NCBI GenBank assembly: GCA_948144175.1 | Contig: CANXME010002463.1 | Span: forward strand, 1,573,001-1,637,000 | Length of the DNA: 64,000 nucleotides | Source: Closterium sp. NIES-65 | Taxonomy: Eukaryota > Streptophyta > Zygnematophyceae > Desmidiales > Closteriaceae | Reading direction: 5' to 3' | In this document: positions 13,691 to 51,159 of the stretch, one piece after another | How the letters are laid out: the number at the start of each line of letters is the position of its first letter | Position numbering within the stretch: position 1 is the first letter of the stretch | Notes under the pieces: generated by a model | The model's database searches: none | Told to the model about the DNA's origin: nothing | The model's input: only the letters and a program-made list of their open reading frames with translations | Made by a program: the position numbers and the translations under genes

Positions 13691-13699
13691 CGGAGTCGA

Positions 13700-30560: not shown

Positions 30561-30664
30561 TGTCTAAGATATGCATATATATTATATTTGTTGGTAGGCT
30601 GTAGTGGGGTAGACTTTGAGGGGTATATCACCTTGTACCTTTCACTCGATAGTCAACTCTTTCA
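30561..30664 (+). repeat. 3' LTR of copia C
   Basis: Begins TGTCTAAG next to the polypurine tract and shares GTAGGCTGTAGTGGGGTA with the other LTRs. The right end is estimated from the pattern ...TCTTTCA, so the boundary may be off by a few bases. Confidence 0.7.
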
Positions 30665-31686
30665 TGCCTAAGTTCCTAAGACAAAGTTGCTTTCACGAAA
30701 CTTTTGTTTTGCAAGAAAAAAGTCTAGGTCAAACGCTTCTTTGTTGGGGTTACAGGGAAAGTGGCTTTCCCACAACTTTCCCGCAGCTTTCTAGCAACGG
30801 GTCCCGCAACACTGCCGCAACACGCTCAGCGTCATGGGGGCCGCTTTTACGTCATGTGTTCGTCGGTGACATTTGCGTCACCGTGATGACACTCCACGGT
30901 TACACATGTGTGTTGCCACATAGCTGCATTGAAGCATACATGAAGTCACTATTCTACGTCAGCAAAATATCTCCACGTGTAATGACGCTTTATGCCAGGT
31001 GGATGCCCTTCCCTAACGAATCGTGTCGTGCCGCATGTAGGGTCTAGATGGCCACACTTGTACGATGGCGATTGTCTCATGGCAATCAGGGTTTGCCAAA
31101 CAGGAGCCGGCACATGGCTGCTCCGGATACGCCGCCAACCTACAAAACTCAAACGGATACGCCACATCGCGACCTTCCGTACGTTACAAATGTTCTCCCA
31201 AGATTTGTAGTGCAATCCACCTGTACCTACACATGCAGCCCGATCGGAGATACTCCAAGTCCAACTAGGACTACATCTGCCAATCTCACATACACGTGAG
31301 ATCGTCGCGGACCTCACGATAACACACATGTGACCATCTGCATCACCCATGTGGCAAACATAAAATTGGACACTGATGCCGGCACCCTATAAGTAACGTA
31401 TCGTTGACGAGTGGCTGGGAGGGATGTACGGTTGCTCTTTCTCCACGTCTTTAGACTAGCATGGCATTTGACGGCCCCTATTAACCCCGCCGTATTTCTC
31501 GCCGCACATTGCGCCATAATTCTCGCCGTGATGCGCGGAACTGTAGTAACACCATTCTCGTGTCTAGGTTGACCACGGTCTCCTCCATGTGTTAAAAGAA
31601 TCCAACATATATGTCCTCGATTTATTGCACATATGCACCGAACGAACAACAAATACCGCCTCCTCCCACTAAGGCACTACACCAAT
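30665..31686. other. Gene-free edge of the DNA-transposon block
   Basis: No gene is seen. Several short inverted motifs occur (for example GGTGACATTTGCGTCACC near 30870 and TCACGATAACACACATGTGA near 31310), and AAAGTGGCTTTCCC-type purine/pyrimidine blocks. If the Plavaka-like element has a left terminal repeat it should be here, but I could not pair any sequence with 50821-51159. Confidence 0.4.
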
Positions 31687-33766
31687 CTACGACACATAAT
31701 TGGCCAAACAACCCTTAGTAGGGCACTCATCGGATTCACTCTCCAACTCATCAGACTCATCGAACTCCTGATGGTCATCTTTGGAGGATGCTTCATCTTC
31801 CAGGAGGCATTCCAGGCCGCAAGATGATAGACGGAGCCCATGCCTGCCCCACTTCCAGGACTTCTTTTCCTCATCGTAGGCCACTTCATTCCCGCACATG
31901 ACATCTGCAATGGCATCAAAGGCCAGCTTCTGAATTCGGCGCACAGAAGCGCCGTCCTCGTACGGAGGGTTGTAGAGTTTCCCCTTGCACACCTCCCAGT
32001 TGATAATGGCGTCCGTGATCTGCGACGGCAAAAAAAAACACACTTAGAACGGAGGCTTGTACGGACGTGGCTACAACAAATGTGCGCAACAGTGTAAACG
32101 TACCAGGTGCTCGAGCCACGACATGTGGTAGAGCTTTAGAGTTGTTTCTTTGTCAGAGCGCTTCCCTCTGAACGCTGCGATGGCACATGCCGAGAACGCT
32201 CCAGAAGCAAAGGGCAGTCCTTCCTTGCTGATGTGCCAATTGCACAAGGCAGGTTCCGCTGCGCACGTGGAATATAATATGGGTACAATGATACCGCGCA
32301 TGGGGGAGGGAGAGGGTTCAATGGCCGTAGTGGTCCACTATGGCATGGCACTCATGCCGGCCCTCAATGCACCGACCATATGACACGCGTACACGCACCA
32401 TCGTCTGTGACGGGAACGCCATATCTTTTTCGGGCACTCTCCCCAGTGCGCTCCTTCTTACGAGCCCAAGGACTGGCTCGGTCCTCGTCGTCACGGAATA
32501 GACCCATCCGGGGAAGAAAAACTCCGCGAGCGCGACCGGCCAACCCTGTTTTGTGCTCTGACAAGGTCTTGTTCCGATCCTGCCTTCGAGACTTATCCGC
32601 GTCTAACGCCAGTGTCGCAGTTTTGGGAGGAATGGTGGACATGACATGGCAGACGCCGGCGTTTTTGGCGTCGCGGCTCGGATAGAAGTCCATCTTCTCG
32701 TTCGGGGCTTCTAGAAATAGATGATCCTTTACCAGGTCGCAAACACCCTGCGACAATGAAAATAGTGTTGCGGGGGGGGTGGAATATGGTGACGAAATCT
32801 GTATTGCTGTTGAGTACCCTACCATGAAGTTACCAGAGCACACTATGCGAAGCCTCACCTTCCAAGCCTTCTCTGCGGAAAGGATTTCAAGGGCGCTTTG
32901 GAGCACTAGCGACTTGTCGGTAGTCATGTGCCTCGCCACTTTTGCCGGCAACTCGTCTTCATCGTACGTGGATTCCTCGTCATCATCTGACTGGCGTTTC
33001 CGCTTCAGAGCTTCCTTGCCAAGAGTGGCCGCCGCACCCGGAGATGCCCGCTTGCGCTTGCGCCCCTCGCCAAGGGCAATGATTGTTAGTACGTGTGACT
33101 CCAGACGAGCCATTGTCTTCGCGGTATCCTTCGCAGACACGCAACGCCTCAAACTCCTTGCGTGTGACGTGGCCACCGGTTGCTGCTTTCCGCTTCCTCG
33201 AAGATGGCACTTTCGGGGCGTGCTCGTCCTCTGATCCGTCTTCCCCACACGGATCGTTGCTTGACGACTGACCACCAGCGTGTCCCTCCTCGTTGCCCTC
33301 CTCTTCGCCTTCCATTAACTCGTCTATCAAGCGTTCCTTCACGGCCTCGGTGTCGACCCCCACAGGGGGTGCGCTCGCGACAATGGGCGTGGAGGTTGCC
33401 TCCGCGTCGACGCCCCCGACAACCTTGGCGTTGCATAGCTGGAGCGGCAGTTCTTGAGCCTCTGGGACAGTGGGTGTGGAATGTAGTACGATGTTAGTTT
33501 TGCGTGCACATACGGCCTCACTCCCAGTGTCATGCATTATCACGTCAACAGCAAAGGCCATATAATTGTCACGTCGCCCAAGTGTTACCTTCGTTATGCT
33601 CTGCCTCCTTATCCTCCTTGTCACTCTTAACTGTACTAGTCTTGCGCCACTTGGGCTCCGTTACGCTTCCCCCTTTCTTCTTCCTCTCCGGGTATTGATA
33701 TGTATACGCCAACCATGACGGCGCATTCTTCGTTCGCTTGGAACGACCGCCCTCTGCAGGACTCAT
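31687..33766 (-). pseudogene. Unknown multi-exon gene X1 of the DNA-transposon block
   Basis: Exons can be traced by GT-AG sites. Exon a is 33766-33589 (MSPAEGGRSKRTKNAPSWLA, basic). Exon b is 33461-32859, acidic then a coiled-coil-like segment with HVTRKEFEAL and MARLESHVLTIIALGEG; one base is out of frame near 33140. Exon c runs from 32747 (GVCDLVKDHLFLEAPNEKM). A later exon ends at 32104 (LKLYHMSWLEHL). The last exon is 32019-31687 (ITDAIINWEVCKGKLYNPPY to an acidic tail, TGA or other stop at 31687). The junction near 32390-32340 is unresolved. I do not recognise the family; it looks like a nuclear accessory protein. It is transcribed away from the ULP1-like gene's start. Confidence 0.5.
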
Positions 33767-34384
33767 CTCGACCTCCAGCGGAGACAGAATCAAAGACCAC
33801 ATACACCGCGGGCTCGAAACTGCGTGGGTAAAAACCAGCTTGGTGTTCTACTCACGCTCGCACGAGTCCCATCACCACCCTCGAGGATATCGCGATGCCT
33901 GCTACCGGGTTTGCAGGCCACATAAATTGCCCCAACTTATTGGCCACGCGCACACATGTACACATGTCACGGTTGGAGTGGCCAGGTGGATTACCATTCA
34001 ATGTCAGCCATACTTTGCACATGGAAAATGTGGTCGTGCCACGATCGAGACACCCCATGCTCGTCCTCGTCTATGTTAGACGCGATACACCACACACCCA
34101 CAGCATCATTTCACCACTTGCGACATCTGCTTCTTACCACATAAGTTCAATCACAAACTGATGCTGTACCACTTACCACAATGGTTTTTCCATGTTCTAC
34201 ATCTGTCCCCGTATACGGTGATGCGACATATATTTACAGCGTCCAGACTGAGACATTTCACATGTCGTATTACATTCAGCAACCTCCAAACCACGCCAAA
34301 CTAACCTGCACCCGTACCCAGGCCTGACAAGATCAGCACTTATCTAAAACATCGGTTGGTCCAATGGCTTCCCTATTCATGGCT
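33767..34384. other. Intergenic stretch between X1 and the ULP1/AP2 gene
   Basis: No coding signal seen. It would hold the promoter of X1 and the 3' end of the gene to the right; both are on the minus strand. Confidence 0.4.
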
Positions 34385-36080
34385 TCATGCAGCAGTGTCA
34401 TCATGGTTGACCTCCTCCCAGTCATCCTCATCCTCTATGCCATCGCCCTCTGGTTCATATACAACATCATCGTCAACGGACTCCTCGTGTGGATCCTCAG
34501 GTTCTTCAGCCATAGGGTGGTCCTGTGTAGCGGGCGTGGTCGCCTCCACCTCCTCCACGTCATGCATGACTCGGGAGACCCGCCCCTTTCGCCGCGAACG
34601 GGCCTCGGGCGGCTGGGCATCATCTAGACCCTCCAGAGCGGCTCTCCACTCCTTCCATCTGTTCCAGCGCCTGTACTTCATGAGAAGCCTTAGGCTCTCC
34701 TCAGTGCAGCCGGCTAGCGCCTGCCTCTCCCCGTCGGACAGCTGCACCGTGCAGCTGATGCGGGAGTTAGGGCGAAGGACAACGGCCCCCGCAACTTATG
34801 CGTAAGATGCCTCATCCTTGTCCTCGTACGACCCCATACAAACCTGCTGCCAGCGAGCAGATATGATCCGCACGTAGTACCTCTGCTTCGCTGCGTTCCA
34901 CATAACTCCCGTCCTTCCGCTGCTTGCGGCCCTTCCGGGGTTACCTGGAGCGGCAGGCACGGGAGTCGAGGCGCGGCTGCGCAAGGCCAGTGCAAGGTGG
35001 CCGCGCTCTTGATGCCGGACCACAGCAAGTGTCGCTTCGTCGGCAGGTACCACGCCATCTTTGGTGACAGGTGTGCGCGGTGCAGGGCAGGGAGAGATTG
35101 CAGGCACTGCCGCCAGTGCACGAGGCTGAGGAGTCCTCGCGCTCTCTATCTGGCCACTTCCGTCCGTGGCCTGCTTCCGTGGAGTCGCCGTCGGCACCAA
35201 CGTTTCGGCCACGGCACCGAGGTGTTGGCGCACTCCTGCGTCCAGCTGCTCCGACGTCACGCGTTTGCTGATGGCCAGATACTCGATCTTGGCCGTAAGA
35301 ACCTGTATGTCATGCTCCAGCACTACGAAATTTTGTTTGTGGTCGAGTAGCTCTCTTCGGATGTCCACGGGTGGGTCGACGCACATGTACCCGTTGTCGT
35401 CGATAACGGGAACAGGCTACTGAGGGATGCGGAGACCCTGGCGCTGCAGCTCGGGTATCAGCGTTCCCTCGGCATGAGAACAAAGATCTGCACACATCTT
35501 GTGGCGGTACCTCTCCACGCTCACTCCCTTAAACAATATATACTCACACACAGTCACGAACCCGGATGTAACCAGAGCTTCGAGATACTGGCACATGTAC
35601 ACACCGCAGTCCCAGCTGTTTGGTTGTTTGGGGATCTGGTGACCCTACGCACATTTCAGCTCCGAAGATCAAAGTCATCAGAATAAGCTACTGTAATAGC
35701 AACAAATTAGATGAGTTTGAGCCAGCGTCGATCCAGGGACTCACCTCCATGGTCACCGTTGTGGCTTTGATAAGCGCATGTCTAGCCGCCTCTTTGTCCA
35801 CCTCCGGATGATTTGGTTGGCACATGAGGTGTAGTAACCTGCATCCGTTCGACGGGGGGAATGTAACAGAGCTGAAGAGGCTGTGTGTCAGCCTTCTCTA
35901 TTCCGCCGACGGCGCACAACGCTTCAGGCCCATTGTTGTAAGCCGCGATTGGGAGCCAATGCAGCTGGGATACGATGTGAATGGCGACGAGTGGGCGTAC
36001 ATCCGCCGTACTCGGTCCGGCCGCATAACACCCGAGGTGATGCCGATCTACATGACAAATAAATGTCTCCGCCATATGGA
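34385..36080 (-). pseudogene. ULP1-like cysteine protease with C-terminal AP2-like domain (gene X2)
   Basis: In minus sense, an upstream exon contains LHWLPIAAYNN (a possible catalytic HW, near 35935) and an exon with PEVDKEAARHALIKATTVTME ends at a GTGAGT donor near 35748. A third exon reads QPNSWDCGVYMCQYLEAL at about 35625-35570, the Gln-Asn-(x)-Asp-Cys-Gly box of C48/ULP1 SUMO proteases, followed by VERYRHKM. TAG at 35417-35419 interrupts; reading goes on with a coiled-coil-like segment. A GVMWNAAKQRYYVRI...MGSYEDKDEASYA block at about 34900-34800 resembles an AP2 DNA-binding domain, broken by TAA at 34796-34798. The frame then ends at 34385. Whether protease and AP2 form one protein is inferred. 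Confidence 0.55.
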
Positions 36081-36127
36081 CTTGAGTAGTTGGTGCCAAT
36101 TAAATATCTCTGTGATACTCTTTATTG

Positions 36128-37022
36128 TTCTGTGCAGCTGTTCACACAGTTCATGCTTGGCCTCAACGCTGCGAAATCGGCCGAGGCCCATGACATCGCC
36201 GTCCTTGTGTCCTCGCGTAGGCACAAGCTCACATGGGGAGAGGGCAAGCTGTAGACGAATGGGCCGTTCCTGGAGCACCACCTAACCCATACTCGCATTG
36301 TGCAGCTGCATGATACTATTCCGGACGTGGGGAACCCGGTGGTGCAGGGCATTGTTGCATTCTTTAAGTCTGAATTCCGTTCAATGTGGGTGGACCACCA
36401 GACGCGCTTCATGACGCGCGTGCCTCCAGCATAGGTGTGGAAGAGTAACTCTCCTTGGGCCGCGAAGACATTGCAGTGGATGTACGAAGCGCTTTGGGGG
36501 GTGGCGACATCCCACATTCAGCTCACGTTTTGGCGCACTAGGTGCGTCCCGGACGATTGGTTATCTCAGCTTCACGCGATCACCAGCGACATGCATGTCG
36601 AGGTTGTGGAGCAACTCGTTGCTAACCTCATGGGCCTGCAGAGGAAGCTGGAGAAGTTGGACCTCCCTGACAGCGTGCTGGAAGCAATGGACTATGCGAC
36701 TTGGGATGACGAAGTTGACGAGGTTACGACCGAAGGCGTTCTTGAGCCGGTCATCAGTCTCGTAGATGATACAAGCAGTGACGGCCGCGTCTCATGGGAT
36801 GACATGGCTCGCCGCACGTTCATGCGTATGGCATCTTTTGCCTACACAAGGCTTGCCAGCGCAAAGGGAGTTGCTCCGCGTGACGTTGTCACGCTTAAGC
36901 GCCTGGGGAACCCGGACCTTGTGGACCGTCTGATGTGCACACCAGAGAAGAAGGTGCGGAGGCAGTCCTACGCGCCTTCGCCGTCCATATCTCCAACGGC
37001 CAGCGAGGAGATATGCTTCTAG
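36128..37022 (+). pseudogene. Unknown gene Y of the DNA-transposon block
   Basis: A plus-strand exon opens after a CTGTGCAG acceptor at about 36137 with LFTQFMLGLNAAKSAEAHD and stays in one frame to the stop at 37020-37022, except for TAG at 36252-36254 and at 36432-36434. Segments include FFKSEFRSMWVDHQTRFM, WMYEALWGVATSHIQLTFW and a C-terminal acidic then Ser/Pro-rich tail. No family is recognised. It starts head to head with the ULP1-like gene. Copia D is inserted 27 bases after its stop codon, so its 3' untranslated region is displaced. Confidence 0.5.
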
Positions 37023-37049
37023 TCCCCTTCGACATCCCTGTGTAGCGTT

Positions 37050-37176
37050 TGTGAGAATAACAAGTAATGATTGCATTGAGCAGCATGAGGAGTACAAGTA
37101 CCAAACCCTAGAGTGTTGTACCCCATATAAGCTACCCCACTACAGCCTATATAGACTAAAGCATATAAGTTTGACA
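37050..37176 (-). repeat. 3' LTR of copia D (127 bp)
   Basis: TG...CA ends in element sense; a polypurine tract complement (CACCCCCATAGG) follows at 37177. Confidence 0.92.
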
Positions 37177-37413
37177 CACCCCCATAGGCAAAGTGTGAGA
37201 AAAAGGGGTCACAAGACCAGTCAAGCAAAGCACAGCAAGCTCAGGGTGGATCACAACGTCACCACACATTCTGAGCACAAGTTCAAGGGCCACAAGGCCA
37301 GTTCACATGCAGGTGTATATATATAAAGCTAAACATGCAAGTGCAAGTATATATAGGTCAAGGTACAAGCAAGGTCAAGAAGTGAGCAAGTGAGGCAAAG
37401 TAGGTACAAGACC

Positions 37414-38805
37414 TCACAGAGTACAGAAGCGCTGATGATCACAAGGCGCAGGTGCCTTGGTGAAGATATCAGCAGTGTTGGCCTGAGAGGCCACGTAAGC
37501 AAGTCGTAGCTGACCATGCTGCTGCAGCTCACGAGCAAGGAAGTAGCAAAGAGCAATGAGCTTCGTTCTGTGCTCCAGTTTGTGCTCACGACATAAGGCC
37601 ATCATGACCTTGTTGTCTACGTACAGAACTGGAGGAGAACGAGGCGACTCTCCGAGGTCAGTCAGCAAGTAGGTGAGCCAGCATAACTCCTGTGCAGCCA
37701 TGGCCCCTACGTAGATCTCAGCCTCACAGCTGGAGCTGAGAACAGAAGACGAGCGGGTAGACTGCCACAAAACAGAACCGGAACCAAGGCTGAAGGTGTA
37801 ACCCTGTGACGACCGCTGTCTAGCCAAGTCGTCAACCCAAGACGCGTCTGCGTGACCACTGAGGACCACTGGACTCCGCCCTCCAAGCACAAGCCCCATG
37901 CCCGACGTACTGCACAAGTAGCGCAACACCCTCTTCGCTGCAGCCATGTGCTCTGGTATGTGTCTCCCAGGAGCAACATAGCATGCGAGAATGGTAAGAG
38001 GGTATGCAAGGTCAGGTCGTGTGCAGGTCATCAGGTACATGAGGCAGCCAACAAGCTCTGGATACGGACCACTCGACTCTACGGACTCATCCGAAGGCAG
38101 AGCTGAGAGCGAGTGGCGAGTAGGCAGAGGAGTGGCCTGAGGCGAGGAGTACGTGAAGCCGAAGCGCTGAAGGACTTGCTGCACCATGTGTGACTGAGTC
38201 AGGGTAATGGTGCAGCGTGCTCTGTCCCGGGTGATCTGCAAGCCAAGGTAGCTGCGCAGTTCACCCAGGTCAGTGCACGTGTGTCTCTTTTGCAGCTCGG
38301 ACTTCACGTGGGCGAGTCCAGCAGTGTCAGCTGTGGCAAAGACCAAGTCGTCGACGTACACGAGGATGTAGAGCGGCGGCAGAGAAGTGTCGGTGCACAG
38401 AAACAGCGACGGGTCGGCAGTAGAGGGAGCAAACCCAAGAGCCGCAAGTGTATTCCTCAGTGTGTCGTGCCACTCACGCGGTGCCTGGCGGAGACCGTAG
38501 ACTGGCCGTCGGAGGCTCCACTGGGTGCCAGGAGGAAAAGTCCCAGTGAAGCCAGGTGGGCGGCGCAGCCAGATCTCCTCGTGCAGACTGCCCTGCAGGA
38601 AAGCAGTGCTGAAGTCAAGAGAGTGTAGCTCGTAGTCACGGTGAGCAGCTACGTGCAGCAGTACCTGAAGAGTGGTCATCTTCGGGGTGGGAGAGAAGGT
38701 CTGAAAGTAGTCAACTCCCTGCCGCTGACTGAAGCCACGAGCCACGTAACGCGCCTTGAAGACAGGCGGAGAACCCGGTGGCCGCTTCACCCTGAAGATC
38801 CACAT
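37414..38805 (-). CDS. pol: Copia D reverse transcriptase and RNase H (463 codons)
   Basis: Open frame from GMWIFRVKRPPG through the DFSTAFLQG block, YGLRQAPREWH and YVDDLVFAT, then RNase H with LVGCLMYLMTCTRPDLAYP, DASWVDDLARQRSSQG, CEAEIYVGAMAAQELCW and YVDNKVMMALC to the C-terminus. The natural start would be further upstream, but TAG at 38866-38868 (Trp in other copies, MASWKS) and a deletion of about 85 codons before it cut the frame. The catalytic residues of RT are intact. Confidence 0.82.
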   Translation of the reverse strand: MWIFRVKRPPGSPPVFKARYVARGFSQRQGVDYFQTFSPTPKMTTLQVLLHVAAHRDYELHSLDFSTAFLQGSLHEEIWLRRPPGFTGTFPPGTQWSLRRPVYGLRQAPREWHDTLRNTLAALGFAPSTADPSLFLCTDTSLPPLYILVYVDDLVFATADTAGLAHVKSELQKRHTCTDLGELRSYLGLQITRDRARCTITLTQSHMVQQVLQRFGFTYSSPQATPLPTRHSLSALPSDESVESSGPYPELVGCLMYLMTCTRPDLAYPLTILACYVAPGRHIPEHMAAAKRVLRYLCSTSGMGLVLGGRSPVVLSGHADASWVDDLARQRSSQGYTFSLGSGSVLWQSTRSSSVLSSSCEAEIYVGAMAAQELCWLTYLLTDLGESPRSPPVLYVDNKVMMALCREHKLEHRTKLIALCYFLARELQQHGQLRLAYVASQANTADIFTKAPAPCDHQRFCTL

Positions 38806-38857
38806 GCCACTGACGTTGTTCGCCCCAGGTGGGGGAACCTCATCAACGTAGGATCCT

Positions 38858-41169
38858 TTAGACTTCTAGGAAGCCATCTCTGCGTCCATGGCAGCTTGCC
38901 ACTGAGAGGAGTAGGGACACTCTATCGCCTCCGCGTAAGTCGACAAGCTCAGCAACTAAGGCAGACGCAGCAGTGGTCTCAAAGGAAGGGTCAATGAAAA
39001 CATTAGCAAGGAGACGCGTGACAGTAGGACTGGCAGCACGAAGGGAGTCCGACTGCGGGTCTGCAAGAGGAGGAAGAGAGGACTCACGAGGAGAAGGTAA
39101 AGGGGCACGCAGTGGAGCAGTGGAAGGACGCAGAGACATCCGGTGCGTGCCGGGGACAGGTGGAGGACGCTGACGCGAACCACGACCACCAGTGCGAGCA
39201 GCACGGACAGGCGACGCAGGGCGAGACGCAGGCGTACGACGCTCAGCAAGACCTCCAGTAGGACCAGTGTAGGGAGAAGGAGCAGGCAGTGGGGAGGCTG
39301 GCTGTAACTGTGACTCAGACTGGACTGGGGACAGACACTCTAAGAGAGGAGCAGGACGAAGAGAGGACGGAAGACCAAGAACGTGCTCAAGGAGTGGAAC
39401 GAAGTACGGCCGCGGCCGCGCAGGGCCACCAGAACCAGCAGGAACAGCACCAGTAGCACCCTCAGCTCCAGCAGCGCCAACTCCAGCACCTCCAGTACCC
39501 TCAGAAGCACCCGCGCCAGTAGCACCTCTAGCGCCAACACCCCCAGCAGCTCCAGCTCCAGTTGGACCACCAGAAGACGCAATAGCTCCAGCTCCAGCAG
39601 CACCGACGCCAGCAGCACCACCAGCTCCAGCACCAGGAGCACCCGCAAGCCCAGCAGCTCCAGCAGCATCCTCAGGACGAGCACCTCCGGGACCCGCGGC
39701 ACCAGCACCCTCAGTAGCAGTAGAACCTCCAACACCCGCAGCACCTCCAGCTCCAGCAGCACCTCCAGCTCTAGCAGCACGGCTCCAGTGCCAAGCAAAC
39801 CACTCGCGCGGCTCTTGTGGAGAGAGGGGATCTCGCCGGGACGAAGCACCCAAAGGACCTCCAGGCCCTGTCCCGCCAGACGCCACATGAGCAGGCTCAG
39901 CACCCCCAGGCTCAGCACCCCGAGTCTCAGCACCCCCAAGCTCAGCACCCTCAGTCTCAGCACCCCCAGGCTCAGCACCCTCAGAGTCAGCAACCCCTGG
40001 CTCAGCACCCCCAGCAGCACCCGAGTCAACAGCAACCTCGACAGGCTCGACTGCGTCTACCTAGGACACACCTGAGGGGGCAAGACCCCGAGGGGGAAGG
40101 GGGTCTACCGGGGGGGGGGACCTGGCGTGAGGAAGAGCGGCGACGGGGGGAGGAGTGCAGTGCGGTAGGGGAAGAGACGCTAGTAGGGAACCGACTCGTC
40201 AAACGTGACGTCCTGAGAGGACAGAACACGGCGCGAGGTGGGGTGGTAAAACTGCCAACCAGGCGCGTCAGGGGGTAAGCTAAGGAAGACGCAGGGAACA
40301 GCACGGGGGGACAGCTTGTCCGCAGACAAGTCGCGAACGAACGCCCGAGATCCCCAGACACGGAACGCAGACGCATCGCCAACCTTCCCCGTCCATCGCA
40401 GAGTAGGGGAGGTCTCCGACATGGAGACCCGGGGCTAGGGGTTGATCTGATGCGCCGCCTACTGAATCGCGAACGGCCACAAAAAATAGGGAGCAGCCGC
40501 ATGGATCATGGACGTACGAGCGACGTCCATGATCATGCCAATGCGGCGCTCAACAATCCCATTTCGCTGTGGAGAGGCCGGAAGTGTGAACGTCTGGCGG
40601 ATGCCTCCCGCACGACAGAAGGCTCGCAGAAGGTCAGAGGAAAACTCTCCGCCTCTGTCGGAGTGCAGACGCAGAATAGGAAAGTCCGAGCCGAAACTGT
40701 CTCAGAGCTGGAGACGAGCTGCGCGGATCCAGGCGATCAACACCTCAGTGACCTCACCCTTGCTGCGCAAGGGGAGGATTGTAGTGTAGCGCGAGTAGTC
40801 GTCAACCACCAGCAGGAAGTAACGCTCATGACCTTATCCACGGACGCGGGCTGGGCCCCACACGTCCATGTGAAGCGTCTGCAGCGGAGCCTCTGTTGGA
40901 GGAAACTCAAAGGATTGAGGAGCGGCGCGCTGCCGCCCCTCGACGCAGGGAACGCAGGTAGGGGCAGGCCCCGGAGGAAGGGGAGGGAGGGACCTGGGGA
41001 GACCAGAGACAAGGATACGGGAGGCCATGCCTCGAAGACAAGGCAGGGAGGGGTGACCAAGGCGGTGGTGCCAGAGGAGAGTCTGGTGAGACTGGAGACG
41101 ACACGAGCAGGGGGCAGACTCAGGACCAGACCTGGACGCTGCAGCAAACACATGACCCGACGCAGCTAT
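38858..41169 (-). pseudogene. pol: Copia D integrase and repeat linker, frame-shifted
   Basis: HHCC motif LLWHHRLGHPSLPCLRGM at about 41080; core HMDVWGPARVRG, LHSDRGGEFSSDLL and NGIVERRIGM. Stops occur in the block FAIQ-AAHQINP-PRV (two TAG, near 40460 and 40436) and a TGA near 40705. The linker (39886-38858) is Gly/Ala-rich with GAxGVGAAGAG repeats. It ends in a deletion: the segment from LDYAASLVAE to IPRSYAE of copia A is missing at about 38940. Confidence 0.75.
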
Positions 41170-42216
41170 CTAACCAGACTCAGCGACTGGAGGAGACTCA
41201 GTAGTCAGTGTGTACAGGCTCGACCTCGGCTGACGGGTAAACGTGGCCAAGTGTTGACCCGTCCGAGCACACGTGCAGTGAGTCACTCGCTGACTCGCAT
41301 GAGTGAACTGGTCAACCCCTCTATCTAGCAGGTCAGCACCACTCACCAAGTTCGTAGAGAACGAGGGGAGGTAAAGACCTGACAGGAAGCCAAACGGGGC
41401 CGCCGGACACGGTAGCACAGTGGAGTAGTTAGCAAGGACAGGACCCCCAGAGGGGTCTGCCAGGGAGACCGCAACCGGCCGACTAAGCGGTGTGAGGGTG
41501 GTGCGGTCTCGAAAGAAGGAGCGGGAAGCACCCGAGTCAAGGGTGAAGGTGTGCAAGACCACAGCAGGCGCAGCACTAGAGAGAGCAGACGCACCAGCAC
41601 CTGGAGGAGGAGACTCACTAGCACCTAGAGCAGCAGCCTCACCGCCACTGGCACCTGGAGTAGGAGACGCACGAGCACCTAGAGCAGCAGCCTCACCAGC
41701 ACCTAGAGTAGCAGACTGGATACTGGGGTTAGGCGGCACACACAGGTGTCAGGCACGCTCAGCACTAGTACACAATGCATACATGGCAGTGAGGATAGTA
41801 TCATAGTGAAGAGCATAGATATCTACCCTCTGCCTAAGCAGCTCCAGCCAGGAGGGGAGCTCAGCCTCGTCGCCAAACTCTGTACACCAAGCGTCGCTCA
41901 GACGGGCGAAGCAGCGGGACTCTGTGTGACCAGGAGTCCCGCAAGGCTGACCAGTCTGGACACCCGTGCGAATGACGTACGGGCAGCGAGCAGTACTTAG
42001 TGACCCTCTACCCCGAGCGTACCACTCGCGAAGCTGCTGGGGCGAAAGGGTCGCGCGCGGACGATGCTGCAGCTGCACCTGGCCACTACAAGAAGCTCCC
42101 GAACTACTCACTCCAGGACGACTCCCACGACGGCCACCCCGACAACCCCAACTAGCATACCACTCACGAAGCTGTTGGGGCGTAAGGGACTCACGCGGAC
42201 GACACTGGAGCTGCAT
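41170..42216 (-). pseudogene. pol: Copia D zinc-finger and protease region with duplicated motif
   Basis: The frame 42216-41749 contains LTPQQLREWYA and, about 40 residues later, LSPQQLREWYA: the segment normally present once is duplicated. A Cys-His cluster follows (CPYVIRTGVQTGQPCGTPGHTESRC). After a TGA near 41747 the protease reads FTLDSGASRSFF with the catalytic DSG intact (about 41530). The frame ends at TAG 41170-41172, the same site at which copia A has TAG and copia B has CAG. Confidence 0.75.
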
Positions 42217-42299
42217 CTGGCCACGCCAGGAGCAGCAGTAGTAGTAGAAAGAGCAGTAGCAGCAGGAGCAGCAGTAACAGCAGTACGGGCAGGGCAGTG

Positions 42300-43060
42300 C
42301 TCACTAGTGACGAGAAGGACCGGCGTACGACGGAGGCAACTGCGGGGCTGCTACAGCGGCAGGGCGGGGCCGCAACGGCCGCTGCTGCAGTGGCGGCTGC
42401 TCCAGGGGTCAGGGGCGGCTCCTGCAGTGGCAGCTGCTCTAGTGGCGGCCGCTCCAGGGGCCAGGGGCGGCTGCAGGTGCGGCTGCTCCAGGGGCCAGGG
42501 GCGGCTCCTGCAGTGGCGGTTGCTTCAGTGGCAGCCCCTCCAGGGATCAGGGGCGGCTGCAGGTGCGGCTGCTCCAGGGGCCAGGGACGGCTCCTGTAGT
42601 GGGGGCTGCTCCAGTGGCTAGGGGCGGCTGCAGGTGCGGCTGTTCCAGGGGCCTGGTGCGGCGCGGGGTAGGGCAGGGCGTTGCGGCGGGCAGGGGCAAC
42701 GTCGCGGGCGGGGGCGACGCAGTGGGCAGGGCGATGCGGCAGGAAGCAAGGCGGGGCCGTGATGGCGACACGACGGGGCCGCGACTGCGGCCTGACAGGG
42801 CCGCGAGAGCGGCCTTACGGGGCCGCGACGGCGGCCTGACGGGGCCGCGGCCGCGACCTGACGGGGCCGCGACGGCGGCCAGACGGGGTCGCGTGCGACC
42901 TGAAGGGGCCGCGACGGCGACCTGGCGGGGCCGCGACCGCGACCTGAAGGGGCCGCGACTGCGGCCTGACGGGGCCGCGACCGCGACCTGAAGGGGCCGC
43001 GACGGCGGCCTGACGGGGCCGCGACGGCGGCCTGACGGGCCTGCAGGGGCAGCTCTCGGG
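42300..43060 (-). repeat. GC-rich repeats in the copia D leader
   Basis: Two blocks: a GGCTGCTCCAGGGGCCAGGGGCGG-like repeat on the left and a 22-bp unit with core GGGGCCGCGACGGCGGCCTG on the right (about 42765-43040). They directly follow the zinc-finger part because the Gag core is missing. Confidence 0.85.
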
Positions 43061-43299
43061 CTGATGGGCCTGCAGAGGCGGCTTGGGGGGGGGGCTGATG
43101 GACCTGCAGGGGCGGCTCGAGGGCCGTACTAGCTTGCAGTAGGGCAGTAGGGCAGTAGGAGGCAGCGCAGGCAGAACTAAGGGCGGGGTGCGCGAGGGCG
43201 CACTCGTAGAGAAAGGCGCACGTAAGGTAGGGCGCACGAGGGCGCTCCTAGCGGAATAGTGGGCCCATAGTAGTAAGCGGTCCTAGGTGGCAACCTAGA

Positions 43300-43446
43300 C
43301 TAGTGATACCATGTGAGAATAACGAGATAACGAGTAATGATTGCATTGAGCAGCATGAGGAGTACAATTACCAAACCCTAGAGTGTTGTACCCCATATAA
43401 GCTACCCCACTACAGCCTACACAGACTATAGCATATAAGTTTGACA
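43300..43446 (-). repeat. Primer-binding site and 5' LTR of copia D (135 bp)
   Basis: LTR 43312-43446 with an 8-bp duplication (AACGAGAT) relative to the other LTR. The inner flank in minus sense is TGGTATCACTAG, so only the first eight bases match the tRNA-iMet primer site. Confidence 0.88.
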
Positions 43447-43451
43447 GCGTT

Positions 43452-43856
43452 CATGATGATATTGAATATGGGCTGGTGTAACAAATGATGATATTGAGAT
43501 CAGTGACCGTTACGCTTGTTATGTAAGCATCAAATCGACATTCGTTGTGTCTTTCTCGAGATTGCTTAAATTGGGGACGTAGGGATTTCCAGGCTCTCTC
43601 TGAGCCTGGAAAAGATGTTGTGATCCCCGATATGGCACAGTCGTATGAATGCATGATTTATTGTTACGGTTAGTGATCAGTCCACCAAGATGACCATGTT
43701 CCGTGCCAACTCATTAAGAACTGTCTCCCACCGCTTCGTATCGTAACAACATTTCGTCAGTCAATTCCCGCAAGACAGACGCCCACGCTAACCTACTGCT
43801 CACCTCAAACCCTAGCGTATGAGAGGTTAGTACTGAGTTTACTTGGTAGTGGCAGG
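43452..43856. other. Short stretch right of copia D
   Basis: Continuation of the 3' flank of gene Y. No gene recognised. Confidence 0.4.
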
Positions 43857-44804
43857 ATGAGCGCAACGGGGTCAAAATCGCTCCTCGTGCTGGAGCCTCG
43901 AAGGCGCAACACACGTAGTTATTTCATACGGTCAAAGCCCACGATAGCCTATGCCATAATGCAGGTGCATGGTGTCATACTTACTCAACAAGGTGAGACC
44001 CTTAGCGCAACCACCATTCTGAGTTTGCTGGACCCCTTCCTCGGTAGTGGATGGTGCAGTCCTAGACAACACCGAGCGCGGGCGATTTAAGAAGCCCGTG
44101 CATCTCTTGCCATATCACCCGATGAACCCACGCCGTTCATGTACCTTTGGCTAGTTTACGCGACGTATCCGGACGAGTCGGAGTCGAGCAGTACACGTGC
44201 CAAAAGTCGGCGGTTCAAAACGTCAATAGATGATTACAGACTCGTAAACCACCGCACAACAAGCCTCGAGGATGCCATACTGCCGGGGTTACCGTCATTT
44301 GACTACAGAGCCGTTCTAATGGCCGCGGCGAGGGCGATGGGATATGAGGTGAGGATCGTTGGTGTGCGGACGTGTTTCTTTTGCATATGGCCAATGACTG
44401 GTGGGGCCTGTTCTTCTGGTGTGCAGGAGGAGAGACGAAGGTCCGATGGGTCTAGAATTTCGACATCTTACCCACGAGACATATACACGGGTGGTGGCAC
44501 CTCTTCCAGTGTAAGCATTATACAGCGTTGCCATTCCGAATCCGCATCCGGCCGAATGTGTTGTGTTACCATCCCGTCATCCGCTAAACCTTGATGAAGC
44601 ATCTTGCAGGTGCATGAGCTCACAGCGAGGAAGGAAATGGATAAAGAAGTGCGCATTGGGGATCTTAGTCGAGCGCTTGGGATGCTCCCGTGGTGGTCCA
44701 ATTTATCTACGAAGCCCACCCAGGGGGAGTTTATGACGGGCACTTCATCTAAGCATGTAGATTCTGCCTTTGTTCGCCTCGTGAAGGCCAACGTTAAGCG
44801 GTAG
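43857..44804 (+). pseudogene. Unknown gene Z of the DNA-transposon block
   Basis: Plus-strand coding pieces with splice sites. A segment EARASLAISPDEPTPFMYLWLVYA leads to FKTSIDDYRLVNHRTTSLEDAI and ends MGYE before GTGAGG at 44349. The next piece opens after GTGCAG at 44427. A last piece opens after TTGCAG at about 44601 (VHELTARKEMDKEVRIGDL) and ends at 44804. The part before 44090 is in a different frame from the second part, so the upstream structure is not resolved. No family recognised. It may be a real gene with more introns, or a decayed one. Confidence 0.4.
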
Positions 44805-45149
44805 ACTGGCGCAATGTAATTACTGGCGCATGGCCTTGGGTTGTTATGGAGTTCGTTTACTATGTTTCAGAAACTTTGGGATATTTGCCATTGTTAGATG
44901 GAGATATGCTTTAGCATGTGTACCGTGCGTAGAGTATTGTGTGGGTCTTTTATCACTCACGAACTTCTTTTTACACGTTGTACTACAAACACCGTGATCA
45001 AATCGAGTGCACATGCCCAAATAGCGAGAGTTGTCCCAGCGTTATCGCGGATGGATATGGCTTCCGACGTGGCCTCGGTGTTTGGGAGGCAAAGACAATG
45101 AGTCATGTGACACTGTGTGGATATTCCGTCAAACCCTAACCTAATGCCA

Positions 45150-45923
45150 TGTATGGCTTCCCCTAGAAGCAACGACACTAAGGAAGCGGAGCGACACATC
45201 TACAAGCTACTCAGTAGTACCATTGATCGCGATGGCACGCGAACGCAGGCTCCGCCAGCGTGTGGTGATATAGGAGCTGTTGTGGATATTAGTCGGGATA
45301 AAACCGTCCTGGTGACTGTAACACCCGAGCCGCACTCGGTAAATGGCCGACAGCCGGTGGAACACTCCTTTGATAACCAAACGGAGGAGGGAGTCGCGGG
45401 GGCTAAGCAGCCGGGCACGGGACCTGAAAAGAAGATATCAGCGGGGATGAATGTAAATGCTGCACATTCTCCCCCTTATAGCCCGGAAACGGAGCGGGTT
45501 GAGGAAATAGCCGCGGGTGCGGAGCGCGGAGATCCCCCGGCCAATGCACGAGAAGGTTCCACCCGCGTGAATGATCTCTTCGACTTTTTCTTCGGGGGCA
45601 ACAGAGGCGACGCGAATAATGTGCCCGTTGAGACGGGAGGGTCCGACCCTCCAAACAACGCCCAATTGAGCTCCGCGTACGGGGCCCCGGATGCTTGCGT
45701 GTCTAGCGCCGCAACTCCTACAATGCACGTGCAGACACATACAGGTGCGTCACAGACACCACAAATTGCTTTACTGCGTGCTGCCATTGATGGGAACACT
45801 GCTGCACGTTTTGAAACTTGCGCTGCATACATGTCGTTTAGGATGCCCGGAGGAAAGTACCCACGAGCACGGGCGGCGCCGCGTGAGGCGCAGGCGTACG
45901 CACGTCGTGGACTCAGAAGGTAG
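45150..45923 (+). CDS. Unknown open reading frame W, probably disordered protein
   Basis: An uninterrupted frame of about 258 to 268 codons; the ATG at 45147-45149 context (MPCMASPRSND) or the one three codons later are plausible starts. The N-terminal half is mixed, with EAERHIYKLLSSTIDRDG and a Thr/Val-rich stretch. The middle is rich in Glu, Pro and Gly. A patch VNDLFDFFFGGNRGD is the only hydrophobic block. The C-terminus is Arg-rich (GGKYPRARAAPREAQAYARR). No domain is recognised. It is one of the few undamaged frames in the block and lies 0.9 kb upstream of the transposase, in the same direction. Confidence 0.45.
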   Translation, partial: CMASPRSNDTKEAERHIYKLLSSTIDRDGTRTQAPPACGDIGAVVDISRDKTVLVTVTPEPHSVNGRQPVEHSFDNQTEEGVAGAKQPGTGPEKKISAGMNVNAAHSPPYSPETERVEEIAAGAERGDPPANAREGSTRVNDLFDFFFGGNRGDANNVPVETGGSDPPNNAQLSSAYGAPDACVSSAATPTMHVQTHTGASQTPQIALLRAAIDGNTAARFETCAAYMSFRMPGGKYPRARAAPREAQAYARRGLRR

Positions 45924-46809
45924 GGGACGTCATGTTATTTGCCGTGGCTGATGCTTCACATTGCCTCACAAGTTGTCGTTGGTCCATTATGGCAGATGCT
46001 ACCAGGTCCGACAATGTCGATGGAGCATTGCTTTTGTTAAATGTGCTAGATCGACTCATGCGGTCATGTCGTAGCAGGCGTGAACACCGTTATAGCTACT
46101 ACTGATGAGATAACCCCGGCGTGGCAGTATGGAGAAGATTGCGGTACTTGGAAAGTCTGGAGTTTTGGAGAAGATGGATTTGTAGTAGATTACTATTATG
46201 CTCTTCTGACTCTATGTGCCTGTAATGGTGGGAGGAGACCAGGGCGGTTTTGAATATGAGTTGGCTTTTGTTGTAGTAATTGGCGTTTATGTGTATTAAT
46301 GTAGCGGGATTGTGCATCAAATACATACGAAGTGGTATCATTGATGCCCGTTGCTCTGCTGTATCAAGTATACACCCTCAGTGGTGTAACCACAAACCCT
46401 GAAAGCGGGAAGTGGATACTCAACGAGGGGAATTCTTACCGTAGACATTTGAGCCGGTTAGGATTTCTCGTTACGGATAAGGCTGACCGCACAGACTCTC
46501 CGCCCATCGTGCTTGCACGATGTCGTCTAGCCGCCATTATACAACCGGTGATAGTGGGGTGGCGTAGTAGGTATACAGATGATCCTCAGATGCCTTAATG
46601 GTAAGCAGAATAATAGGATGCTCGGCGGTGCGCGAGAAGTAGAGTCCGCGGTTTCGGTGGCTGGATGCAGGTCGTGAGTGGCGCAAAGAGCGCATAGGTG
46701 GTCCTGCGTGTAGTGTAGAACATGCATGACGGGTCGGTAGGCAAGGGGGGACTAGAGGGGAAGTCAGGGTACGGCCCTTGGGTAGGGGTGGGTGCGTAGA
46801 TTAGGTCAC
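45924..46809. other. Gap between W and the transposase gene
   Basis: No coding signal seen; expected to hold the promoter of the transposase gene. Confidence 0.4.
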
Positions 46810-47434
46810 ATGGCAGGGAACAGGTGCGGTGCATGTGTCCAGGAACTTTGCTCAGACAACTTGCTGAGGATCCATCTGTATCGAAATGACACGTGCAGGG
46901 ACACGCTGCTTGCCAAGTTAGAGAGTAGGGTGGTGGAGGCGTTGGCGGAGGCTTTGGCCTCGGTCAGAAGTAGCCCGCATCATTCGAACAGTGAGTCTGT
47001 CCCGAGTAGCCCCCACTCCGCGGACTCGCTGTTCCGATATCTCATAGAGGTCCCTGAGCGCGCGGACTTTGTGCGCGGTTATGTGTCGTCGTCGGACGAT
47101 GGATCGGTTTCCACAGTTGGCGACCTGTTCAATACACTAAACGAGCTGTAATTGTTCTTTAAGGATGCGGGATTTATTGGACAGAGAAATAAATAGAGTG
47201 TTGCACATATTCAACCACCCGGGATACGATCCTGTCGCGGTTCGTCGCTGGTAGAAAGTCGCGGACGTGAGGCAGTATGGGGAGGAACACGCGCCCGACG
47301 ACATGGTGCCGTGGCTCAAGGCAGAGATCAAGGTGCGGGGGCCCGGAGGAAGGTCTCAGATGCTAGAACTGTTGTACAAGGACACCAAGCTGGTGAGCGA
47401 TTGATGATGGGTGCAGTAACGAGCCGGCGGGTCT

Positions 47435-47811
47435 TGTCAGAATCCCAACCACTAGACCATTGGGATATAAGGGCTTTTTTTCAGTGGCGGGTCAGTGCGC
47501 CCATAACCCCCCAGGCGAAGGCGCCTGTAACCCTCTCCAGGATCAATCGGGCATCCACAGTGCAGATCTACTGACACCCCCCCACACTGGGAGGCCCAGG
47601 ACTAAGCACAGCGGCAATGGCCTACATGTGCATACACCGGGAATCGAACCCGAGACCGCTCTGATACCATGTCAGAATCCCAACCACTAGACCATTGGGA
47701 TAAAAGGGCTTTTTTTCAGTGGCGGGTCAGTGCGCCCATAACCCCCCAGGCGAAGGCGCCTGTAACCCTCTCCAGGATCAATCGGGCATCCACAGTGCAG
47801 ATCTACTGACA
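47435..47811 (-). mobile_element. TRIM (377 bp) in an intron of the transposase gene, TSD GGTCT
   Basis: Two 142-bp direct repeats, 47435-47576 and 47670-47811, begin TGTCAG and end CTGACA and differ at a single position. They enclose 93 bp with, in minus sense, a perfect TGGTATCAGAGC primer site next to the 5' LTR and a G-rich polypurine tract (GTGTGGGGGGG) next to the 3' LTR. The duplication GGTCT is exact on both sides (47430-47434 and 47812-47816). There is no coding capacity, so copying must use proteins of an autonomous element. The near-identity of the LTRs implies recent movement. It lies between the donor at 47393 and the acceptor at 47870. Confidence 0.93.
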
Positions 47812-48800
47812 GGTCTCTGCCTGTTTATGTACTGACTCAAGAAATGGTTTTGCCGCCTCTGTTTGGACAGATAGCGCAGAAGATGGTGAAGACATTTGTG
47901 AATGTCAGGGGATTTGTCAAAAGGCCGCGGCGAGATCTGGAGGATACAATAGAGACGAGACATTTCAGTACGCCCGACACAGGGACATGGCTGGAAGAGG
48001 CGCAGGCAAGTAGATGCACAAGTTCCTGCCGCATCACATGGGGCGACGGTGTGACTTGGTCTGACTTACTGGGTCACGTTGTGTCGTTGTCAGGCGGAAC
48101 TGCTGGAGGAGGATTCAATTGTGCTGGGTGTCACCTCGTACAGCGACAACACCTACGCGTCAGGGAACGGACGCCTACAGGCATGGCCAATGCTGATGGG
48201 TTTGGCCAATGTCCCGGATAAGTTACGATGGCGTGAGCCAGGGCACGCTCTAGTGGGTGTGCTCCCTTTTCCGCCAGAGTGGGCATCGGCGACGGAGAAG
48301 ACTCGGGTGTATCAGGAGGCGTATCGCATTGTGATGGGTCCGTTGATGCGAGAGAGCCGCGAGTAAGTGGTCTGAATGTATGATGTAGGCCGTTGGCGGC
48401 GATGGGGTTCATGGTCGGCGATTGAAAGCCATCGAGCCTTTACATTGTGCATGCTGTGGTCCGCTTCGACTCTTTGATGTGTCAGACGGGCGCGGAGGTG
48501 TGGTGAAGGCATATCCATGCCTATATGCATTCGTCGGCGACTATCCGGAAGGGTGCCGGGCCACAACAACGATGCAGCAGGCTTCGCACAGACCGTGCTC
48601 GAGCTGCTACATCAAGAGGGCGCACCTCCATGACCTGTCCAACGAGTACATAGTGCGCACAGTGAAGAGAGAGCGGCACGCGGTGGCGATGATACTGAGC
48701 GCAAAGACGGTGGACGAAGCTGCAGCGGTCCAGGCCAGGTGGTCTTCGCATCCGATCACGGTGCGCGCGATGTGTTCATGTGTGGCAAGTCACATGGTTG

Positions 48801-48988
48801 TTGAGGCATCTTGTAGGCACGTGATTGTTATGTAGGCACATGATCCTTGAGGCATCTTGTAGGCACATGATCCTTGAGGCATCTTTTGGGCACATGATTG
48901 TTCAGGCATCTTGTAGGCACATGATCCTTGAGGCATCTTTTGGGCACATGATTGTTCAGGCATCTTGTAGGCACATGATCCTTGAGGC
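48801..48988 (+). repeat. 27-bp minisatellite in a transposase intron
   Basis: About seven units of AGGCATCTTGTAGGCACATGATCCTTG with two alternating variants (TTGTAGG and TTTTGGG). They lie between the exon encoding WSSHPITVRAM and the exon with LTVTTSLTSPSN. Confidence 0.9.
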
Positions 48989-50820
48989 GTATTGTTGACC
49001 GTTACGACCAGTCTGACATCGCCCTCGAATGTGCATAGCGTTCTGGAGCGCTGGAACTTCTCTGAGATGAAGTGGGGTAACGTTTTCCTGGCTGTTGTTG
49101 GCAACATATTGCATGTGCTGGATTCTCGGGTGCTGGTGCATATGGCTACCTGTTTCATGGAGGGGAAGACGAAGGCCGAGATACGAGGGTTTGATCAATG
49201 AGTACTCGGATCTACCGTGCATTGTTTTGTATGCGGTACTACGCCCGTGGCGGATCTCACCACGGAAACTTTTGCATTGCGTTGCCTATGGGTGCTTGGT
49301 GCCTGGAACAGCCGCAAGTTTGGAGTGAAGGGCGACACAAGGAGTGTCCTGGTGTGCATCCCGGATGGCTCCACCTTTTTCTGCAGCGGGGCGAATTACG
49401 CAGCTTTCGAGTATCGTGGCATGATGCAAGTTTTCCCAATTATCATTTCGGACCTGTGTGTGGGGCGCTCTGCGGAGGAACGGGACCAGAGGGACAAAGA
49501 GGTTCGTGCCTTCCGCTACTATGCGGTCTTCTACAAGTCCCTGCTGGCCATGACCAAGCACACGGGGCTGACCCTCGCTATCGCAAGGCAACATGGAATC
49601 TCGTGAGTATAATTGCAGGACGACGTATTTGTACTATTACTGGCGTTGTTCCCCAAATATGCTGCTAGTAGAATGCGCTCATTACGATGTGTCAACACGT
49701 TCGTGTAGGCTGGTTGCTGCACTGAAGGCGGCTTTCCCGAAGTAGAAGTCGAAGTGGAACTTTGTGAAGCTCCGCGAAGTAGTGCACCTCATTGATGGCA
49801 TATCCATGAGGGGTTTGCCGCATGAGTATTCGACGAAGCTGTGGGAGCATACCCACAAGGGCACAGTGAAAGGCCCCGTGCGTGGAAGCAACTGGAAAGA
49901 CATACCAAGGAGGATTGTGGAGGAGGAGACACAGCGCGAGATCACAAGGGAGATTGCGGCATTGTCGGGTGGTGGGAGAACATACTACACCGCATTGCGA
50001 GAGGTACATCACCCGTCGCTTTCTTAGTGTAGGTGGCGTTTGTAAAAGACACACAGGTGTGCGTGCTGTCTAAAACTAATCACGCCACCATTTCCTCCCA
50101 TCCGTGCTCACAATCCACCACACAGGCTGTGCGCAACATGAAGCCCGCGCTGACCCGCACCAGCAAGGCCATGTGTCTCATGACGGATGACGATCCAATG
50201 CGCACGCTGTACAGGGAGACGGTGGGGAGCGAGTTCGACAACATGGCGACACTAATGGCCGCGGAAGGCATGCAGACTGCACGTGTGTTGATGAGATACC
50301 GTGTTTTGCTGTTAACTTGGGCGGGTGGATCTAGTTGTAAATCAGGTTAGTGCGCTGTGAATGGGAGACGCATGTGGAAAGGTATCGCGATACAATGTAA
50401 CGATCCTCGTGAAAACCCACCCATGCACAGCAGGTGCACACAGCAGTGGCCATCCCTAGCACGAAAGGGGGGTACTTGGTGCCGAAGGCGATGTTCGTGA
50501 AAGCAAGCCCGAAGGAGAACTGGTTCACCGATATTGCAATCCCGGGAGAGAGGGAGGAGGAGGAGAAGTGGTGGTATGCGCGGTGCCTCTGTATTTTCAG
50601 GGCGGTGAATGGCAGCGGGGGGGAGGGTGCATACGTTTTCGTGAAGTATTACGAGGAGGAGGGGGTGTGTCCACAGACTTGCCCCCAACTGGTGCCGGGG
50701 CGGAGGGAGGCCACGCACGGGATAATTGAAGTTGCATCGATCGAGCGTATTGTCCATGTGTGCAAGTCGTTCACAAATCCTAGAGAGCTGCTACTCAATA
50801 GGTTTGCTCTGATCGATTGA

Positions 50821-51159
50821 TGGATTTTGGAGCTCTGCCTCGTGCGCCTCGACTTCATGGTAGTTGTGATTACGACTATACATTAATAGCCCATACTATG
50901 AGAAATGCAGTGGGATATGGCCTGGATCATGTTTGTCCATGATTAACTAAGGGCATAGTTGTGACGTCATAGTTGCATAGGCGACAATTGAGATTTGTTG
51001 CTGCAATGTCACTTTGGCCATTTGGGGCCAAATGTGCGCGCCGAAGGTTTCCCGAAGCTTTTCCAAAGCTTTTCCGCAGGAAAAGCTACCGTGTCACATT
51101 TGTGCTCACTCGAAATTTCGCGATGAACACAAGACATGACACACACAAACTCACCTCAC
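50821..51159. other. Right edge of the DNA-transposon block
   Basis: No gene. It contains AAGCTTTTCCAAAGCTTTTCCGC-type repeats at about 51055-51080. A right terminal repeat of the Plavaka-like element would be expected here; none could be paired with the left side. DOMON-3 sequence begins at 51160. Confidence 0.4.

Follow-up and report, generated by a model that had tools for sequence, protein, structure and literature searches.

Genes, ends, and copies of the element

The window studied here is a stretch of 64,000 nucleotides from Closterium sp. NIES-65 (C2165:1573001-1637000, with contigs cited by short handles), in a genome assembly of 874 Mb. It contains a whole Plavaka-type transposon at positions 30682..51125, a degraded copy delimited by alignment to an uninterrupted relative of 15,545 bp on contig C1801. 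The element carries six genes: a Plavaka transposase, X2 (a predicted ULP1-like protease with an AP2-like domain), X1, W, Y, and Z. It is characterized by its anatomy, its family, its ends, the recurring order of its genes, and purifying selection on their exons. An earlier sequence-only reading had proposed a single 13-kb element at 31687..50820. The single element stands, while its ends lie further out, at 30682 and at the right terminal repeat.

The terminal inverted repeats are 10 bp long. The right repeat, TTTCGCGATG, is located at 51116..51125 on the plus strand, and the C1801 and C1651 copies carry its partner, CATCGCGAAA, at their left terminus; the C1801 copy runs from CATCGCGAAA to TTTCGCGATG. 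At the right edge, 18 matching rows end at window positions 51121-51127, with the query reaching 275 bp further. Beyond this edge, the query (window 43450-51400) matched only the window itself and contig C388. At the left edge, the C1801 and C1651 copies are alike up to the terminus, and the next 60 bp are identical at only 14 of 60 positions. Both ends could be read in two copies, and each shows a 2-bp target duplication, AA for C1801 and CA for C1651. The AA duplication is the weaker one because purines abound in the flanks of C1801, and a single 2-bp match is weak evidence. The termini CATCG..CGATG share four of five bases with the CATCA..TGATG ends of PlavakaB, for which duplications of 2 or 3 bp are given in the available part of PMC12730594. 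The C2080 copy deviates at its left terminus and the C2400 copy at its right terminus. A search for subterminal repeats gave no unusual signal, since 72 of 500 interior controls had the same 8-mer maximum.

Beyond C2165 and C388, a further 19 contigs contain pieces of the right half (window 43450-51400), most of them 74-86% identical, and pieces of the left half were likewise found on other contigs. Stretches of six contigs (C1801, C2080, C1651, C2199, C2400, and C532) were fetched for comparison. The first three span the whole element and carry all six genes in a single shared order with the same ends. This bears out the proposal that one element holds all of the genes, and it supplies the further copies, sharing X1, X2, W, Y, and Z with the transposase and defining terminal repeats, that the sequence-only reading had asked for. 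The C2080 copy has the full span with a TRIM (terminal-repeat retrotransposon in miniature) inserted and its left terminus diverged, the C1651 copy has the full span with a copia insertion and a deletion of about 100 bp in a transposase exon, and the C2199, C2400, and C532 copies are partial in the fetched stretches. Both haplotypes are apparently present in the assembly, as many PF00847 matches are paired on two contigs and a near-identical copy of the locus lies on C388. Two element copies each, head to tail and about 340 bp apart by match positions, were observed at C2178:1413-34258 and C2292:1591142-1631357; these two contigs may be alleles.

Transposase gene and family assignment

The transposase gene is located at 46810..50820 on the plus strand. 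It has nine exons (46810-47392, 47871-48005, 48094-48362, about 48458-48760, 49037-49197, 49312-49602, 49709-50003, 50126-50290, and 50434-50820), modelled by splicing the C1801 copy and mapping the exons to the window. The gene is broken in the window by stops at 47149 and 47252, another stop in exon 7, and a 1-base indel in exon 1. In the C1801 copy, the nine exons are open for 866 aa, and the introns are GT-AG except for one GC-AG intron. All motifs named in the sequence-only reading were located in the letters: the finger NRCGACVQELCSDNLLRIHLYRNDTC in the exon from 46810, the block SDNTYASGNGRLQAWPMLMGLANVP in exon 48094-48362, GDYPE in exon 48458-48760, EYRGMMQV in exon 49312-49602, and EHTHKGTVK in exon 49709-50003.

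The spliced C1801 protein matched the Plavaka profile PF18759 with 86.2 bits against a cut-off of 26.3 (E 3.3e-24), which confirms the Plavaka identity; a single C1801 exon scored 21, under the cut-off. The first part of the transposase aligns with Plavaka open reading frames from four other places in the genome and has the N-terminal finger, the first D block, DYPE, and CSSC in common with them. CSSC, which follows DYPE, represents the C(2)C motif between the second D and the last E. These reference frames stop short of the later exons, the region of the H(3-4)H motif and the last catalytic E. The Kyakuja-Dileera-Zisupton (KDZ) model is included in Pfam. A Pfam scan of the spliced transposase at E<=1 gave no KDZ match, only Plavaka and one S19e match below its cut-off, and KDZ membership was rejected. 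The available part of PMC12730594, a paper of 2025 by Kojima, sets Plavaka with EnSpm/CACTA and not with KDZ.

Other Plavaka families are plentiful in this genome, with 133 PF18759 matches from the best 123 of 1397 candidates. The six-frame PF18759 search did not list the family of the window element, probably because of its split exons, and gives no count of that family.

The ULP1-AP2 protein encoded by X2

X2 lies on the minus strand at 34385..35838. Exons 4 and 5 (35745-35837 and 34385-35644) are left, with two stops, and exons 1-3, including those bearing the catalytic His and Asp, are missing. The full model from the C1801 copy has five exons and encodes 696 aa. PF02902 (peptidase C48) matched this spliced protein with 43.9 bits against a cut-off of 20.7 (E 3.2e-11), and the C1801 exon with the QPNSWDCG box matched on its own with 23.8 bits. 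The box, located at 35603..35626 (minus strand), contains the Gln and Cys of a C48 protease by motif. With the PF02902 match of the spliced protein, the ULP1 assignment of the sequence-only reading holds. The predicted catalytic set of the 696-aa model is H192, D218, Q273, and C279, residues that we take to be catalytic from the C48 motif rather than from a structure.

The core of the AP2-like domain is located at 34772..34912 on the minus strand and contains one stop. The region matched six PHROG families, every one of them of HNH endonucleases, with a best E of 7.6e-6. It was compared with two phage HNH-AP2 proteins (records PP780467.1 and NC_014467.1), to which it is 49% identical over 43 residues and 35% over 48 residues; the 49% match is to the AP2 segment of the phage MK21 HNH endonuclease. 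In both proteins, the matched segment is their Pfam AP2 (PF00847) segment, which served as a control and scored 34.9 and 25.5 bits against a cut-off of 33.3. By tblastn, 29 phage records matched at E<=10, the lowest E being 0.02; among the 15 records listed, 10 carry an annotation as HNH or homing endonuclease. From these sequence matches, the X2 domain is read as an AP2 domain closest to the HNH-endonuclease kind, since HNH families of PHROG and phage proteins match it and the matched phage segments coincide with Pfam AP2 matches, one of them below the cut-off. The PDB profile search returned the AP2 factor WRI1 (E 0.82) as its only match at E<=10. Of the 144 AP2-like places in the genome, 110 were examined, and all of these are more than 2 kb away from the 125 listed PF00847 places. 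NCBIfam gave no match for X1 or for the last X2 exon.

Genes X1, W, Y, and Z

The remaining genes lie on both strands, as had been claimed, with X1 on the minus strand and W, Y, and Z on the plus strand. X1 (31687..33797) encodes a charged protein in exons at about 33636-33797 (tentative), 32859-33459, 32397-32747, 32105-32261, and 31687-32019, with an indel in 32859-33459. W (35837..37022) encodes 393 aa in the C1801 copy; in the window, its start was lost in a 2-kb deletion and it has two stops. Y (43854..44804) is modelled with 257 aa in the C1801 copy and consists of exons 43854-44348, 44427-44511, and about 44630-44804, with one stop. Z (45153..45734) has a ratio of nonsynonymous to synonymous substitution rates (dN/dS) of 0.42. 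Pfam gave nothing above the cut-off for X1 and no match for Y and Z, and W was without a match in Pfam and PHROG. PDB profile searches with W and X1 returned one weak, unrelated match apiece. W, Y, and Z are additional genes of the element.

Purifying selection on the coding exons

Purifying selection acts on exons of all six genes. Between the C1801 and window copies, dN/dS was 0.05-0.49 over 17 comparable exons, the three X2 exons being missing in the window. A frame-by-frame comparison of 13 of these exons gave dN/dS values of 0.11-0.49 in the proposed frame (pooled 0.31). The pooled values were 1.10 and 1.42 for the two shifted frames and 1.10, 0.46, and 1.34 for the antisense frames. The antisense frame pooling at 0.46 is the one that mirrors third positions, and in exon X1b the antisense frame equals the proposed one (0.48 vs 0.49). 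The low ratio in the proposed frame against those in the shifted frames indicates that the named genes are more than chance open reading frames. The evidence on W, Y, and Z comes from two subfamilies. The AP2-like part has a dN/dS of 0.15 over 95 codons, compared with 0.33 for its whole exon.

Recurrence of the gene set across the genome

The AP2-like query gave 150 matches, which represent 144 places after removal of six second pieces. Transposase places number 72 among the matches listed (of 185) and X1 places 120 among the matches listed (of 166), with one row per place. These counts include alleles, come from the best-scoring candidates only, and are lower bounds. The 144 AP2-like rows comprise 39 close and 105 divergent ones; a 36-residue piece on C2006 (94% identity) was excluded, leaving 104 divergent rows at 33-51% identity. 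At the 39 close rows, X1 lies downstream on the same strand within 12 kb in at least 34, the transposase lies upstream on the opposite strand within 35 kb in at least 25, and both are present in at least 23. At the 104 divergent rows, the corresponding numbers are at least 54, at least 25, and at least 15, and a transposase solely in another layout was found in none of the 104 among the matches listed. The chance expectation over all 144 rows is about 0.1 for X1 and about 0.2 for the transposase.

The AP2-like and X1 matches keep the same layout beside transposases that are 46-66% identical to the query. In addition, 8 of 12 PF02902 genome matches are followed on the same strand by an AP2-like place 0.9-1.1 kb downstream, where about 0.01 would be expected. 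Because parts of the gene set recur beside related transposases, the ULP1-AP2 gene and X1 seem to belong to the working equipment of the element and not to be chance passengers. The label of unusual cargo, given to the AP2-like module in the sequence-only reading, does not fit a pair conserved in this way. A divergent AP2-like and X1 pair was also observed at C2165:1563150-1565493, about 7.5-10 kb to the left of the window.

Proposed mechanism and alternative explanations

The locus is probably a large DNA transposon of the Plavaka group with several genes, preserved as a degraded copy. It would have a transposase that works on 10-bp terminal inverted repeats and leaves a 2-bp duplication, and a ULP1-AP2 protein that acts against silencing or in favour of transposition. 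The transposase would act on the terminal repeats and move the element by cut-and-paste, and each insertion would leave the 2-bp duplication. In the divergent direction, the element encodes a predicted ULP1-type protease joined to an AP2 domain of the HNH kind, followed by the likewise conserved X1. The AP2 domain may tether the protease to element DNA, where the protease could strip SUMO from host silencing proteins or from the transposase, and copies would then escape silencing or transpose better. A more specific version holds that this Plavaka clade has its own DNA-guided SUMO protease, in which an AP2 domain from the HNH world, and not a host AP2/ERF domain, steers ULP1 to the copies and removes SUMO-dependent silencing. 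This version is rather doubtful.

Several observations weigh against the transposon with its own ULP1-AP2 machinery. Protease activity, SUMO specificity, and DNA binding are all predicted from sequence. The Pfam AP2 profile PF00847 gave no match to X2 at E<=1, so that the earlier AP2-like claim stands through homology to the AP2 part of phage HNH endonucleases and not through that profile. AlphaFold gave a mean predicted local distance difference test score (pLDDT) of 44 for the AP2-like region, predicting three strands and not the expected helix, and a mean pLDDT of 36 for the W model; at these scores neither model was good enough to be informative. The comparison with the closer C1651 copy is noisy, with dN/dS of 0.01-1.50 (W 0.86, Y 0.73, X2 exon 2 1.50, and X2 exon 3 0.71). 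Both ends for the target duplication come from two copies only. Among the matches listed, 79 of 104 divergent AP2-like places have no transposase at the expected position within 35 kb. The sequence-only reading had held that transposases lacking the neighbouring genes would count against it; of the 72 related transposase places, 21 are without an AP2-like match inside 35 kb, and an X1 match is present at 7 of these 21 (among the matches listed). Only 4 of 123 PF18759 places lie within 25 kb of an AP2-like place, where about 1 is expected, which indicates that Plavaka elements in general do without the ULP1-AP2 gene. Since the layout recurs at divergent places, yet few PF18759 places are near AP2-like places, X1 and the ULP1-AP2 gene are judged from sequence comparison to be an old part of one Plavaka clade and not of every Plavaka in the genome.

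In CACTA elements, an accessory DNA-binding subunit is known in TNPA, and X2 may be a comparable subunit of transposition, with a protease that acts on the element's own transposase or is vestigial. This reading is less likely than not. In its favour, the AP2-like part is under more constraint than its exon as a whole, and the gene is paired divergently with the transposase. It fits less well with the catalytic motifs retained in the C1801 copy, with the C48 matches that recur at divergent places, and with the lack of an outstanding subterminal repeat. It is improbable that the genes other than the transposase are recently captured fragments of host genes carried as passive cargo (Pack-type transduplication). 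The available parts of PMC2528002 and PMC13317346 report that plant DNA transposons have captured genes, Ulp1 domains among them. Against this, dN/dS is below 0.5 for exons of all six genes between two subfamilies, and for X1 and X2 the recurring layout beside related transposases speaks against passive cargo, which was rejected for these two genes.

Side-by-side placement of unrelated genes or elements by chance or nesting is next to impossible. A nested copia and a TRIM do occur in the window, but the right-half pieces on 19 further contigs and the nine copies that are continuous at the copia site argue against such an origin, as do the three full-span copies with the whole set in order, and it was rejected. 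C48-like proteases are present in large eukaryotic DNA viruses, which lends something to the idea that the locus is a Polinton-like element or an endogenous virus whose protease is of the viral maturation type. The tie between Plavaka and the giant repeats of Amoebidium in the available part of PMC11244446 points the same way. Such an origin is very improbable, as the ends and the transposase suit a cut-and-paste transposon. No capsid, polymerase, or packaging family was found in the Pfam scans of the element genes, in PHROG searches with the AP2-like region and W, or in PDB searches with the AP2-like region, W, and X1, and viral origin was rejected on these searches; no structural virus genes were seen in the three full-span copies read.

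Relation to known transposons and significance

The transposase family, ULP1 domains in CACTA-like elements, and large Plavaka repeats (PMC11244446) are already known, as far as the available parts of the sources show. In the available part of PMC12730594, Plavaka is grouped with EnSpm/CACTA, and the fungal PlavakaB shares with the window element the transposase family, the CATC...GATG ends, the 2-bp duplication, and the C(2)C motif. The window element differs in its fifth terminal base (G, not A), its length of 15.5 kb with six genes, and the presence of the ULP1-AP2 gene and X1. The same part of that source names a TET/JBP dioxygenase as a helper gene of Plavaka, and no TET/JBP match was found among the Pfam scans of the genes of the window element.

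CACTA elements of grapevine and rice likewise combine a CACTA-related transposon with a ULP1-type protease domain; their transposase has a Tnp2 domain, and the available part of PMC2528002 mentions no AP2 domain. Kaonashi/VANC-KIU shares a transposon-borne Ulp1 domain in an element-directed protein, but it belongs to Mutator rather than Plavaka, and no AP2 domain is mentioned in the available part of PMC13317346. There, plant Mutator VANC proteins, some of them with a Ulp1 domain, are described as acting on related copies and countering methylation, and the exact role of the Ulp1 domain is called unknown. The Plavaka giant repeats of Amoebidium are tandem gene clusters of up to 50 kb with many tyrosine recombinase genes, and the available part of PMC11244446 mentions no ULP1-AP2 gene. 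Plavaka-type elements are also found in a green alga, as the EnSpm-Plavaka elements of Auxenochlorella (PMC12633428, available in part). Phage HNH-AP2 endonucleases share the AP2 domain and have an HNH nuclease in place of the ULP1-type protease (PMC2248197, available in part). No report of a ULP1-AP2 fusion in Plavaka, and no paper on Zisupton with Ulp1, was found in the literature searched, which covered few subscription journals.

Plavaka is mostly fungal in the literature available to us in part, which also names it in Amoebidium and a green alga. The helper found here is a different one, a predicted ULP1 protease fused to an HNH-type AP2 domain, which is found repeatedly together with the transposase in divergent families within a single genome. 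If the proposed role is true, this would add an independent example of a chromatin-acting enzyme retained by transposons, and the target of its DNA-binding part is testable. The fusion also bears on the spread of AP2 domains in eukaryotes. Under the DNA-guided version above, the element would show HNH-type AP2 domains being spread by eukaryotic transposons today, near the route proposed for the origin of plant AP2/ERF (PMC7714060, available in part).

Decay of the window copy and later insertions

The window copy aligns with the C1801 copy over positions 45-5204, 7192-12396, and 12400-15545 of the latter. It is without the outermost 44 bp of the left end, which lies next to a copia long terminal repeat (LTR). 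An internal deletion of about 2 kb (C1801-copy positions 5205-7191, with its junction at 35837..35843) removed sequence that is present in other copies, including the first three X2 exons. Stops or frame-breaking indels occur in exons of five of the six genes, the exception being Z. In the transposase, exon 1 has two stops and the 1-base indel and exon 7 has one stop; X2, W, and Y contain stops, and X1 contains the indel.

Two later insertions interrupt the copy. Copia D (37050..43446, minus strand) is bounded by an LTR pair and flanked by the 5-bp duplication GCGTT at 37045-37049 and 43447-43451. It is located 27 bp past the stop of W, and the two sides of its site are adjacent in nine other copies. 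The TRIM is a 377-bp insertion at 47435..47811 in transposase intron 1, with GGTCT at both sides. The earlier view that copia D and the TRIM are not part of the element is upheld by these flanking duplications.

A plus-strand copia at about 24000-30681 adjoins the left end of the element. Its 5' end looks lost or rearranged, because no other plus-strand match to its LTR end occurs in the window except a 36-bp piece at 61672. The same TRIM family is found in transposase intron 1 of the window copy and in an X1 exon of the C2080 copy (about 3441648-3442024).

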